From contig REEL01000088.1 of NCBI GenBank assembly GCA_007695095.1, positions 1-44,550 on the forward strand: 44,550 bases of DNA, given 5' to 3'. Both the position numbers and the translations under genes were made by a program. The notes below the pieces were generated by a model that worked only from the letters and a program-made list of their open reading frames with translations, was not told the origin of the DNA and ran no database searches. This document shows positions 6,765-44,550 of this stretch, piece by piece. The DNA comes from Chitinophagaceae bacterium (lineage in GTDB: Bacteria; Bacteroidota; Bacteroidia; Chitinophagales; REEL01). Each line of letters starts with the position of its first letter. Positions within the stretch are counted from its first letter, which is position 1.

Positions 6765-7157
6765 TTAATCTACACTGCGAAATCCTTCATCATCCTCTAT
6801 CATAAAAAAAGCATCTTCTATATGATAAATTTTTCGTTGGGTATTTGTGATTATTATGGATATTACATCAAAACGCACCTCAACTTCAAATGCATAATCC
6901 TCCAAAAAATTATTAGCCCCCCTTTGCAACATCTTCTTTTTTTGCTTTCCAATACTTTCCTCCGGATGTCCAAAATAATCCGTTGACCTTGTTTTTACTT
7001 CAGCAAAAACTAATGTATTTTCAATTTTAGCTATAATATCAATTTCCGACCTTCCACTCCGCCAGTTTTCAGCTATAATTGAATAGCCCTTGTTTAAAAG
7101 ATATTCTTTGGCCAATTTTTCGCCTTTTTTTCCTTTTTCTAAATTCTCCATACTCAT
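6765..7157 (-). CDS. UPF0102 (YraN-like) nuclease-fold protein
   Basis: 130 residues, the normal length for UPF0102. The family fold is that of Holliday-junction resolvases and restriction endonucleases. The N-terminal GKKGEKLAKEYLLNKGY, the central NWRSGRSEIDIIA (E38, D40) and FAEVKTRST (E53, K55) give the acidic-x-K active-site pattern of PD-(D/E)XK nucleases. The cellular role of the family is not established; DNA processing is likely. The ATG follows the TAA of the upstream ykuK-like gene with no gap, so the two are probably translated from one message. An in-frame ATG two codons later could also serve. Confidence 0.88.
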   Translation of the reverse strand: MSMENLEKGKKGEKLAKEYLLNKGYSIIAENWRSGRSEIDIIAKIENTLVFAEVKTRSTDYFGHPEESIGKQKKKMLQRGANNFLEDYAFEVEVRFDVISIIITNTQRKIYHIEDAFFMIEDDEGFRSVD

Positions 7158-41071: not shown

Positions 41072-42199
41072 TTAATCTGTTAAATCATCCCACACAAAGC
41101 CCGGATCCTGAAAGGGGTTTTTAAAGTCCGGATTGTTCAAAAATTCATGATCGGTTAATGTGAGCAAAAAGGCATGTAAATCATTTTTTTCATTCTGTGT
41201 AAGCTGAACGCCTCCCTGAAAGAAAAACTCCATTAAGGGATCTACATTAGGCGAGTTTTTTAATCCACTACTGTAAAATTCTATAACTTCCATTAATGTG
41301 GCAAATTCACCATTATGCATAAAAGGTCCGCTGACTTCTGTATTTCTCAATGTAGGTGTTTTAAACTTTCCGTTATCCAGCGGATTTCCTGTTACAGCTC
41401 CCCTGCCTAAATCATTAAAGTCATTTAAAGAAGAAGCTTCCTGCAAAGCATTATTATGAAATAAGTTATCTGTGAATAAAATATTCCCATGACAATGAAA
41501 ACAATCCGCATCTTCACTGAAAAACATGTCGAAACCGTTCAACTCTGCATTTGTAAAAAAGGCTTCATTACGCTGAACTTTATCAAATTTGGAATTGCCT
41601 GAAATAAACGTTCTCAAAAACTGTGCGATTGCTTTGGCTGTAAGTTCCGGAGTTATTTCAGTTTCATCAAAGGCTTCCCTGAAAAGCTGAGGGTAATAAT
41701 TATGATTCATCAGGCGGTCAACTGCATCAGTCCAGGATAAATTCATTTCAATCGGATCGGGAACAGGTTTTAAAATCTGATCTTCCAGTGTTGGTGACCG
41801 GCCATCCCAGAAAAAGTGCGTGTTAAAACCGATATTAGCTAAAGACATAGATGTGCGTGTACCTTCTATTCCCTGCACACCTGTACTGAATTTATTTCCG
41901 CTGTCTGTAAAATTAAAACTTTGATTGTGACAACCGGCACAGGAAAGAGTAGAATCTAAAGAAAGTATCGGATCATAAAAAAGCAATCTCCCTAATAAAA
42001 TTCCTTCTTCAGTAAGTTGGTTATCCTGAGGTATCACCATTTCCGGGAAATTAGACGGCATATCAAGTGTAACCGGGGTGGGGTTATATACAAATGAATC
42101 CTTGGGGTCATCTTTAGGCGGTTCCGGCGGATCTTTTTTACACGCTTTAAAAGCAAAAATTAATGCGAAAAAAAAAGTAATAACAGCGAGCTTTTTCAT
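41072..42199 (-). CDS. Di-heme cytochrome c peroxidase / MbnH-like lipoprotein (copy 2)
   Basis: 375 residues. The N-terminus MKKLAVITFFFALIFAFKAC ends in an atypical lipobox (C20, with Lys at -2), so periplasmic anchoring is likely. Two heme c sites are visible: CAGCH at 87-91 and CFHCH at 233-237. FFWDGRSPTLEDQ (W131) is the conserved motif between the two hemes; that Trp carries electrons in bacterial peroxidases and MauG-type enzymes. MHNGEFATLMEVIEFY near 306-321 is the family C-terminal motif. The gene lies 41 bases after another di-heme gene and downstream of two MbnP-like genes, so MbnH function (oxidising a Trp of MbnP) is a better guess than simple H2O2 removal. The final stretch is rich in acidic and aromatic residues. 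Confidence 0.88.
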   Translation of the reverse strand: MKKLAVITFFFALIFAFKACKKDPPEPPKDDPKDSFVYNPTPVTLDMPSNFPEMVIPQDNQLTEEGILLGRLLFYDPILSLDSTLSCAGCHNQSFNFTDSGNKFSTGVQGIEGTRTSMSLANIGFNTHFFWDGRSPTLEDQILKPVPDPIEMNLSWTDAVDRLMNHNYYPQLFREAFDETEITPELTAKAIAQFLRTFISGNSKFDKVQRNEAFFTNAELNGFDMFFSEDADCFHCHGNILFTDNLFHNNALQEASSLNDFNDLGRGAVTGNPLDNGKFKTPTLRNTEVSGPFMHNGEFATLMEVIEFYSSGLKNSPNVDPLMEFFFQGGVQLTQNEKNDLHAFLLTLTDHEFLNNPDFKNPFQDPGFVWDDLTD

Positions 42200-42240
42200 A
42201 ATCTATCAAACATTTTGTTAATGAAAAAAGTTTCTTTCAA

Positions 42241-43230
42241 TTAGACCCCGTCATCTAAAACTAATAAAAATTTTACCAAAGCACTTTTATCTTCCTCAGA
42301 TAAATTCAAAGGTCTGATTCGGCTATCCTGATTCACATGTCCGGAACCTCCTGAGTTATAATGATTAACAACCTCTTCAAGCGTAGCTAAACTACCATCA
42401 TGCATATATGGGGCTGTTAGGGATACATTTCTTAAAGATGGGGTTACAAATCGCCCCTCATCATCCGGATTTAATGTAATGCGCATTCTGCCATTATCTG
42501 CATATACATCATATAAGCCATTATTATGAAACTTTTGATCGGTAAGCAAAAAACCTGTATGGCAGGACCCACAATTTGCTTCTCCGAAAAAAATTAGCAT
42601 TCCCTTCTTTTCCATTTTACTTAAAATCTGTTCATCACCGCTTTGCAGGTATTGATCATAACGACTGTTTCCCCCTATTAAAGTTCTCTGAAAAGCAGCT
42701 AATGAACGGGTTAGAACGAAAGGGTCCGGTTCACGACCAAAAGCTTTTTTACTGAGCGTTACATATTTTTCAATTTTTTTTAGTCTTTCAATAACTTCCG
42801 GAACACTAAAATCCATTTCAGCTGAGTCGCTAATTGGTGCTAAAGCCTGAAGTTCTAATGTCGGAACTCCTCCATCTTTAAAAAAAGACGTTCTGTATGC
42901 TGTATTTATCAAAGTTGGCGAATTACGCATGGAAAGTCTGCCATGAATCCCTATACTTTTTGGCAAGGCGTCTGTAAATTTTTTTTCCGGCAAGTGACAA
43001 GATGCACACGAAACAGTTGAATCTCTTGACAAAATAGGATCAAAAAAAAGCATCTCCCCCAGTTTTACACGGTCTTTTGTAAGGGGGTTATCTTCCGGAA
43101 TTATAGGTTGCGGAAAACCCCAGGGCAAATCAAGCTTATACATTTCCGGAAATTCTTTTATTTCTTCCTTTCCGCAAGAAACCAAAAGCAACAGAACTGA
43201 TAAAAAAAAGTAAACTACATTGCGATACAT
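42241..43230 (-). CDS. Di-heme cytochrome c peroxidase / MbnH-like lipoprotein (copy 1)
   Basis: 329 residues from the ATG at 43230, which gives a standard lipoprotein signal (MYRNVVYFFLSVLLLLVSC, lipobox LVSC, C19). A more upstream ATG at 43281 would overlap the previous gene by 38 bases and bury the lipobox, so I reject it. Heme sites are CASCH at 75-79 and CGSCH at 220-224. The inter-heme motif is changed to FFKDGGVPTLELQ, with K118 where Trp is expected. MHDGSLATLEEVVNHYNSGG is the family C-terminal motif. Loss of that Trp could weaken electron passage between hemes or change the reaction. It is third in the operon, 13 bases after the MbnP-like gene. Confidence 0.86.
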   Translation of the reverse strand: MYRNVVYFFLSVLLLLVSCGKEEIKEFPEMYKLDLPWGFPQPIIPEDNPLTKDRVKLGEMLFFDPILSRDSTVSCASCHLPEKKFTDALPKSIGIHGRLSMRNSPTLINTAYRTSFFKDGGVPTLELQALAPISDSAEMDFSVPEVIERLKKIEKYVTLSKKAFGREPDPFVLTRSLAAFQRTLIGGNSRYDQYLQSGDEQILSKMEKKGMLIFFGEANCGSCHTGFLLTDQKFHNNGLYDVYADNGRMRITLNPDDEGRFVTPSLRNVSLTAPYMHDGSLATLEEVVNHYNSGGSGHVNQDSRIRPLNLSEEDKSALVKFLLVLDDGV

Positions 43231-43243
43231 ACTTATATGATGA

Positions 43244-44044
43244 CTATTCCACAGAGATAGAAGAAACCAAATTATTAACAACTCTCTCCGCTAACTCAAA
43301 GTTATTTAACGTATGTGTTGAGTTTTCTGTTGCAAAATCTAACATATCATCAGGGTTTTCAAGTATTTTGTCCATGTCAAACTCTAAACGAATTTTATTA
43401 TCTGCATCAGCTGTGAAATCTTTTAACACTGGAAAAGTTAATACCACTTCCCTGTATAAATCCTCCAGACCTGTATGATATAATAAAGCCCGGTTATAAC
43501 TAGAACTTTGCCCGGGGTCAGTATTTACTCTACCCTCTATTTTGGTAAAAATATAACCGGTATTCCAGTCCCAATGTGTGCCATGATAAATGCTTAACGG
43601 ATGTTCCTGCGGATATTGAGCCGGATCGGAGAAATTTTTATCCTCACCTACTCCTATTCCAAACGATATGCTGTTGTATGCTCCTTTGGGAACCTCAAAG
43701 TTAAATTTTACACCGGAATTATCATCTGACATATGTGCATCATTGAACTTAACGAGCATAACATCACTTAAAAGAACCTTATTTTCATCTATATCTATCA
43801 AATAAATATCGTGAAAATAACTCATAAACATCTCTAACTGATAGGGATATCCGAGTGGGTGCATATATTGATTAAAAAGGATTAAGTTTTCTTCTCCCTT
43901 TACAGCTTTAAATTCAATAGTTATATTTGCTTTTAGCTCTTTATAGGGGTCTTCCGACTTGTCTTTTTTACATGAGTTAAAAGATATAACGAAAAAGGAT
44001 CCGAAAAATAATAAGGTTATAAATTGTTTAAATAAATTTTTCAT
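43244..44044 (-). CDS. MbnP-like copper-associated lipoprotein (copy A)
   Basis: 266 residues. The signal ends at a lipobox-like FNSC (C25), followed by KKDKSEDP, so this is a lipoprotein. The family signature is present: SDPAQYPQEHPLSIY, then HWDWNTGYIFTKIEGRV at 157-173 with W158 and W160. MbnP-like proteins (PF20243 as I recall it) occur with di-heme MbnH; in methanotrophs MbnH converts an MbnP Trp to kynurenine to make a copper site. That this gene directly precedes two di-heme peroxidase genes supports a substrate-enzyme pairing. No methanobactin precursor is nearby. The actual metal is not shown by sequence. Confidence 0.85.
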   Translation of the reverse strand: MKNLFKQFITLLFFGSFFVISFNSCKKDKSEDPYKELKANITIEFKAVKGEENLILFNQYMHPLGYPYQLEMFMSYFHDIYLIDIDENKVLLSDVMLVKFNDAHMSDDNSGVKFNFEVPKGAYNSISFGIGVGEDKNFSDPAQYPQEHPLSIYHGTHWDWNTGYIFTKIEGRVNTDPGQSSSYNRALLYHTGLEDLYREVVLTFPVLKDFTADADNKIRLEFDMDKILENPDDMLDFATENSTHTLNNFELAERVVNNLVSSISVE

Positions 44045-44145
44045 TCGATTATTTTATGTTTAAAAAGAAGATGCTAAATTATCTGTAAAGAGATAATGCA
44101 TACTAACCTTTAAACATATTCTGTGCATATAAAATTCAAAATGAG

Positions 44146-44550
44146 TTACTTTTTTGCTTTTAAATAAAAAGCTTTATTGAAGTTATCACTAAAAAGAATA
44201 GCATTTTGAATAGCAATTTCTCCTGAAATAGCCATTACTATTGGGTTATTTGCAACCTGAATGCCATCGAAAAGTTTATTAATATCTAATTTAATATTTA
44301 TATTAGCATTCTGTTCGGCATAAAGATTTGAATTCAGCAAAACAGATACTTGCTCATACAGCATATCGGTTCCAATATGATATGCTAAATCCTGATTAAG
44401 TTCAGCATTCGGGGGAATAGTATTATCAATCCTCCCTTCCAGTTTAAAAAATATATATCCCGGATTAATCTCCCAGTGCATACTTGGAGACTGATATCCT
44501 AAAGGATGTCCATGTGAGTATTCAGCCGGATTTATATGATTTAAGTGCTC
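44146..44550 (-). CDS. MbnP-like protein (copy B), N-terminus beyond window
   Basis: The frame is open from the right edge to the stop at 44146-44148, giving 134 visible residues. It begins EHLNHINPAEYSHGHPLGYQ, then MHWEINPGYIFFKLEGRID, which aligns well with copy A (HWDWNTGYIFTKIEGRV). The second Trp of that motif is replaced by Ile (HWEI). The region LAYHIGTDMLYEQVSVL also aligns with copy A (LLYHTGLEDLYREVVL). It precedes copy A by 101 bases. The signal peptide is outside the window. A duplicated MbnP with a changed Trp site suggests different partners or loss of modification. Confidence 0.82.
   Translation of the reverse strand, partial: EHLNHINPAEYSHGHPLGYQSPSMHWEINPGYIFFKLEGRIDNTIPPNAELNQDLAYHIGTDMLYEQVSVLLNSNLYAEQNANINIKLDINKLFDGIQVANNPIVMAISGEIAIQNAILFSDNFNKAFYLKAKK

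Follow-up and report, generated by a model that had tools for sequence, protein, structure and literature searches.

Two unlike diheme enzymes, with and without the inter-heme tryptophan, recur beside MbnP genes in Bacteroidota

In Methylosinus trichosporium OB3b, MbnP (Protein Data Bank (PDB) entry 7L6G; TIGR04052) is encoded beside a single diheme MauG-like enzyme, MbnH (6e1c; TIGR04039), which in the 2021 work of Manesis et al. is said to convert the first Trp of the MbnP WxW site to kynurenine. Copper sites with a Trp-derived kynurenine are also documented in CorA of Methylomicrobium album BG8 and MopE of Methylococcus capsulatus, each encoded with a diheme peroxidase-like protein, CorB and SACCP respectively (PMC3912023). 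These two have one diheme partner each and a copper site reported as two His plus the kynurenine. Their sequences are described as not markedly similar to MbnP (PMC3621798). MauG, which has the superfamily and fold of the enzymes described below and acts on preMADH in methylamine dehydrogenase biogenesis, is reported to need its inter-heme Trp for tryptophan tryptophylquinone (TTQ) synthesis, whereas BthA of Burkholderia thailandensis carries Ser257 in place of that residue and still forms bis-Fe(IV) (PMC6405878). Methanobactin-free pairs are not new, MbnP/MbnH genes having been recorded outside methanobactin producers in 2013 (PMC3621798). Here we describe four genes at the end of a 44,550-base stretch of Chitinophagaceae DNA (the window), which encode two MbnP-like proteins (MbnP-A and MbnP-B) and two diheme enzymes (CCP-1 and CCP-2) of different kinds. 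What is new, as judged against the open-licence literature (an earlier mention elsewhere is possible), is the Trp-asymmetric enzyme pair beside MbnP.

The Trp-asymmetric enzyme pair

The locus shares with the OB3b system the MbnP fold, the conserved Trp and His of MbnP and an adjoining diheme MauG-like gene, and it differs in having two unlike enzymes instead of one. CCP-1 and CCP-2 both belong to the CCP_MauG family PF03150 (cut-off 25.6 bits; scores and coordinates in Table 1), both carry two CxxCH heme motifs and both have MbnH 6e1c as their best PDB sequence match, in agreement with the initial annotation, which had called them diheme MbnH/CcP-like lipoproteins. The MbnH model TIGR04039 is the top NCBIfam model for each, while the MauG model TIGR03791 gives 183.6 and 223.5 bits for the two, below its curated cut-off of 443.85. 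An AlphaFold model of CCP-1 (predicted local distance difference test (pLDDT) score 91) has 6e1c as its best fold match, with a root-mean-square deviation of 1.9 Å and a template modelling (TM) score of 0.85.

The two enzymes part at the residue between the hemes. At this position 6e1c has a Trp, as do MauG and bacterial cytochrome c peroxidases; CCP-2 retains it as Trp131 and CCP-1 replaces it with Lys118; we assign Lys118 to the inter-heme Trp site because its spacing to Gln128, Pro132 and Glu138 equals that of MauG Trp93 to Gln103, Pro107 and Glu113 (numbering from PMC6405878). CCP-2 further shares with 6e1c a CxHCH second heme motif, so that CCP-1 lacks both signatures of the OB3b enzyme. 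By sequence, CCP-1 does not appear to be a dead enzyme: across 100 members of its clade, conservation exceeds 90% for each of the heme Cys/Cys/His residues, for the distal Tyr and for the Gln/Pro/Glu pocket, whose residues Q128, P132 and E138 are kept in 92-95. In classical bacterial cytochrome c peroxidases the second heme has Met for its distal ligand; CCP-1 and CCP-2 lack it and instead have a Tyr in the MauG/MbnH Tyr column. Both the pocket and the Tyr ligand of MauG have their equivalents here. CCP-1 also has Arg at positions 54, 166, 175 and 250, mostly absent from CCP-2. BthA is likewise a diheme enzyme with a replaced inter-heme Trp, but it is only ~23-24% identical in the CCP-1 fold match, the replacement in the present family is mostly Arg or Lys, and BthA has no description as paired with a Trp-bearing paralogue beside MbnP.

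The pairing recurs widely. A survey of the window genome and other genomes of its order gave 82 loci, a few of them near contig ends. MbnP was found with one CCP at 52 loci, with two at 11 and alone at 12, and two adjacent MbnPs were found with two CCPs at five loci and with one at two. A set of 56 two-enzyme loci was then drawn from this survey, from a CCP-1 profile search of 299 genomes of the order (63 loci fetched) and from named public contigs (Saprospiraceae, Cryomorphaceae and others); it contains a few near-duplicates, such as L119/L196, with identical CCP-1, and L078/L189. Since L119 is a named Saprospiraceae locus and L196 comes from the genome coded f18, Saprospiraceae fall within the order of the window genome, which in GTDB is Chitinophagales. 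At these 56 loci one enzyme of each clade stands beside MbnP. Among the 53 pairs that are readable at the Trp site, 52 combine a Trp-bearing CCP-2 with a CCP-1 that lacks the Trp; the CCP-1 residue is Arg in 36 cases, Lys in seven, Phe in five, Met in three and Leu in one. The sole exception is L076, with Trp in both enzymes. The CxHCH motif is present in 51 of 53 paired CCP-2 (the other two sequences are incomplete at this point) and in none of 52 paired CCP-1. In the class at large, the CCP-1 profile matches 70 of 295 sampled genomes (some matches retain the Trp), 18 of 28 loci fetched show the CCP-1/CCP-2 pair, and all 17 readable pairs have the asymmetry. Recurring as it does in dozens of genomes, the block of MbnP, CCP-1 and CCP-2 (P-C1-C2) is far beyond chance. 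Spacing is tight, CCP-1/CCP-2 overlaps of 4 to 8 nt are frequent in relatives, and CCP-1 is usually the neighbour of MbnP and sometimes the sole diheme gene there.

CCP-1 and CCP-2 are 38% identical and fall into two clades in trees of 139 rows and of a 67-row subset; in the latter the split occurs in 98% of sampled bootstrap trees with branch support of 86/87, and the clades are old. MbnP-A and MbnP-B are 34% identical over 124 aa. A recent duplication of an MbnP-MbnH unit is ruled out by the two identities and the separate clades, and the term "duplicated" operon used in the initial annotation is misleading. Nor did its proposal of two matched enzyme-substrate pairs fare better, since MbnP and enzyme numbers are decoupled: the 56 loci include 39 with one MbnP (P-C1-C2), six with two (PP-C1-C2) and two with three (PPP-C1-C2). 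Given this decoupling, and enzymes of two kinds in all readable pairs except one, the evidence points instead to a pair of different enzymes with one or more MbnPs in common. The recurring mismatched pair suggests a possible division of labour between the enzymes. With a Trp-bearing and a Trp-less enzyme side by side, next to their likely substrate, the pair also offers a natural comparison of the role of this Trp in peptidyl-Trp oxidation.

We also considered whether Trp loss is a consequence of having a CCP-2 partner. Of 115 non-redundant MbnP-adjacent CCP-1, 72 of the 73 paired with CCP-2 are Trp-less, against 29 of the 42 unpaired; only about three Trp changes on the tree lie behind this raw association, so the contrast is not independent evidence and the explanation was set aside. 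An apparent CCP fusion in genome G042 (a 732-aa frame) was ruled out by a stop codon between its two CCPs. As a separate observation, L146, L149, L150 and L151 (Rhodobacteraceae and relatives) have two adjacent diheme genes without MbnP, and in the first enzyme of each, His replaces the inter-heme Trp and Leu the pocket Glu.

MbnP proteins and copper context

Both small proteins are MbnP-like, as had been noted from the sequence alone. They score well above the gathering cut-off of PF20243 (27 bits), and TIGR04052 is the best NCBIfam model for both. A profile built from 22 MbnPs and searched against PDB sequences finds M. trichosporium MbnP 7L6G (E = 5.7e-8), whose GMAWNW aligns over the M-x-W-x-W site and VHVG over H-x-G. 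The AlphaFold model of MbnP-B (pLDDT 80) has six significant PDB matches, all of them chains of 7L6G (best E 4.4e-10, TM score 0.54). The first Trp of WxW, Trp158 in MbnP-B, which we take to be equivalent to the Trp oxidised in MbnP, is kept in 164 of 170 MbnPs and the conserved His in 160 of 170. MbnP-A retains the Met two residues before the Trp; for the copper-ligand Met of 7L6G there are two candidates, between which the sequence does not decide. In the MbnP tree, MbnP-A groups with the MbnPs of most P-C1-C2 loci, and MbnP-B lies in a separate group with the MbnP of L085, itself a locus with a CCP-1/CCP-2 pair.

The copper role proposed initially is plausible through the neighbouring genes of relatives and remains circumstantial. 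Neighbours of the 56 paired loci include HYC_CC_PP proteins (9), TonB receptors (10) and CusA/CzcA efflux genes (2), and CusA/CzcA efflux genes also lie beside seven loci with only CCP-2; they may point to a metal role. The absence of methanobactin synthesis genes, noted earlier for the window, extends to MbnB genome-wide, no match to TIGR04159 being found in the 98.6%-complete genome (MbnC and the precursor were not searched for), which is a further difference from OB3b.

Several features of the MbnPs and their surroundings were observed in passing. MbnP-A has a Cys-rich insert after the lipobox (SCHDPDAENFHPAGGSACDDCCIY, L006 ~6830-6920) that resembles the insert in the L062 and L068 MbnPs. 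The window genome (G000) encodes a third MbnP (HWSW) on contig C148 (C148:39282-41556; L007:8282-10556) with no diheme gene adjoining, flanked by a small GKCYLK-like protein and an outer-membrane-like protein (OMP). In L049, L053, L059 and L203 these elements lie together as GKCYLK-OMP-P-P-C1-C2, a set that the window genome apparently keeps split between two places. A type IX secretion sorting tail (PF18962) was counted in 11 of 16 aligned MbnPs, 15 of the 16 coming from named contigs; the scan gives a count without names, and the loci with long MbnPs are L117, L119-L122, L138, L139, L142, L143, L145 and L158. The tail hints that MbnP may be exported to the surface in those relatives; the window MbnPs are without it and are lipoprotein-like instead. 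A YHYH-domain protein stands beside an MbnP/CCP-2 pair in ten loci (L045:4640-6061 and nine others), with a type IX sorting tail in L045.

Proposed mechanism and competing explanations

We consider it probable, by a modest measure, that the operon matures kynurenine-dependent copper sites in MbnP by means of two specialised diheme oxidases acting on shared MbnP substrate(s). The four proteins would be exported as lipoproteins, and the diheme enzymes, with peroxide, would convert Trp176 of MbnP-A and Trp158 of MbnP-B to kynurenine, allowing MbnP to hold Cu(I) near its conserved His. CCP-2 would be the MbnH-type enzyme and likely the main oxidase because it has the two MbnH signatures, the inter-heme Trp and CxHCH. 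CCP-1, an ancient paralogue whose heme motifs and peroxide pocket are intact, would act together with CCP-2 on shared MbnP substrate(s), most probably by forming a heterodimer with it or by taking on an oxidation step of its own; such a partnership is favoured by its usual place next to MbnP, the frequent CCP-1/CCP-2 overlaps and the age of the pairing. From these comparisons we infer that kynurenine forms, that copper is bound, that the two enzymes are physical partners and what CCP-1 does. The recurrence of the block suggests that copper sites of the kynurenine type are common in Bacteroidota and far from confined to methanotrophs.

Several observations weigh against this reading. The equivalog models are missed at their curated cut-offs, with TIGR04052 giving 46.6 and 36.3 bits for the two MbnPs (cut-off 140) and TIGR04039 giving 257.6 bits for CCP-2 and 254 for CCP-1 (cut-off 362.85), a point in which the locus also differs from OB3b. 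Only MbnP-B has a complete WxW, the second Trp being Ile in MbnP-A, and MbnP-B has Thr in place of the Met that precedes the Trp by two residues in most MbnPs; the same Thr-for-Met change is found in the CCP-1-adjacent MbnPs of L049, L053, L194, L202 and L203. The metal site may be affected by either substitution. The operon in the window has no copper gene as a neighbour. CCP-2 is not always an adjacent partner, as 42 of the 115 non-redundant CCP-1 beside MbnP lack it, 29 of them Trp-less. Finally, partial distance correlations, suggestive at most, were weakest between CCP-1 and CCP-2 (0.23, against 0.54 for MbnP with CCP-2 and 0.41 for MbnP with CCP-1, with overlapping intervals) and show no preference for CCP-1/CCP-2 contact over MbnP contacts.

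A stronger form of the proposal, which we regard as possible and rather unlikely, is that CCP-1 and CCP-2 constitute an obligate hetero-diheme Trp oxidase, in which only one partner would carry the inter-heme Trp relay, the other having Arg or Lys at that site, and both would be needed to convert the MbnP Trp to kynurenine. It is also doubtful, in our view, that CCP-1 serves only in support, as a peroxidase or electron-transfer cytochrome that clears excess peroxide or re-reduces CCP-2 without touching MbnP. The loss of the inter-heme Trp from an enzyme that retains its peroxide pocket is what such a role might leave behind, and the corresponding MauG Trp is reported to be needed for TTQ synthesis; however, Ser at the same site is tolerated in BthA (both PMC6405878), so Trp loss alone does not reveal the function of CCP-1. 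The usual position of CCP-1 next to MbnP, at times as the sole diheme gene, and its MauG/MbnH Tyr in place of the Met ligand of classical peroxidases also speak against a supporting role.

Quite improbable, we think, is the explanation that the window MbnPs no longer form a copper site and that the operon has another redox or surface-protein function: the Thr of MbnP-B, the lost second Trp of MbnP-A and the lack of an adjoining copper gene would fit it, but Trp and His are near-invariant in MbnPs and CusA/CzcA and HYC_CC_PP genes adjoin the same block in relatives. Least probable of all is that MbnP-A and MbnP-B each have a dedicated enzyme for a separate job, which the adjacency of two MbnPs and two enzymes, the different positions of the MbnPs in their tree and the six PP-C1-C2 loci would favour, and which the 39 two-enzyme loci with a single MbnP, the two with three, the order P-P-C-C in place of P-C-P-C and the same Trp asymmetry at one-MbnP loci speak against.

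Gene layout and feature coordinates

The window covers bases 1 to 44,550 of contig C88, which is 122,870 bases long and part of a 3.49 Mb draft genome; G+C is 36%. The run of four consecutive minus-strand genes first noticed at its end (41072-44550) was confirmed: MbnP-A comes first, followed by MbnP-B, CCP-1 and CCP-2, and the intervals between them are 101, 13 and 41 nt. The window edge truncates MbnP-A, whose full 284-aa frame lies on the contig.

Table 1. Genes and residues of the MbnP/diheme locus (window coordinates unless stated)
Feature	Coordinates	Strand	Basis or description
MbnP-A	44146..44550 in the window (C-terminal 134/284 residues), on to C88:45000	minus	PF20243 118.5 bits; whole gene L006:6146-7000
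MbnP-B	43244..44044	minus	266-aa predicted lipoprotein; PF20243 104.8 bits; AlphaFold model matches only MbnP 7L6G significantly
CCP-1	42241..43230	minus	329-aa predicted diheme lipoprotein, Trp-less clade; PF03150 174.1 bits; best PDB sequence and fold match 6e1c MbnH
CCP-2	41072..42199	minus	375-aa predicted diheme lipoprotein, Trp-bearing MbnH-like clade; PF03150 167.2 bits; best PDB sequence match 6e1c
MbnP-A Trp176, first Trp of WxW site (HWEI)	44473..44475	minus	alignment
MbnP-A His208, conserved His of HxG	44377..44379	minus	alignment
MbnP-B Trp158 (THWDW)	43571..43573	minus	invariant in alignments A1 and A2; aligned with GMAWNW of 7L6G
MbnP-B His190, conserved His of HxG	43475..43477	minus	invariant in alignments A1 and A2
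CCP-1 first heme motif CASCH, residues 75-79	42994..43008	minus	sequence
CCP-1 Lys118, replacing inter-heme Trp (MauG Trp93)	42877..42879	minus	alignment; spacing to Gln128/Pro132/Glu138
CCP-1 second heme motif CGSCH, residues 220-224	42559..42573	minus	sequence
CCP-2 first heme motif CAGCH, residues 87-91	41927..41941	minus	sequence
CCP-2 Trp131, inter-heme Trp retained	41807..41809	minus	alignment
CCP-2 second heme motif CFHCH, residues 233-237 (CxHCH as in MbnH)	41489..41503	minus	sequence

For CCP-1, the list of open reading frames has a longer frame to 43281 whose TTG start lies within MbnP-B; starting at the ATG at 43230 yields a standard lipoprotein signal and leaves the 13-nt gap after MbnP-B. 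All four proteins begin with a signal and a lipobox-like Cys and thus look like lipoproteins. The four genes are probably co-transcribed, judging from their spacing; a promoter and terminator scan of the operon yielded about as much as shuffled sequence and is therefore silent on the operon limits. Upstream of MbnP-A, the intergenic region holds diverged direct repeats of ~90 and ~30 nt (L006:7071-7568; C88:45071-45568).

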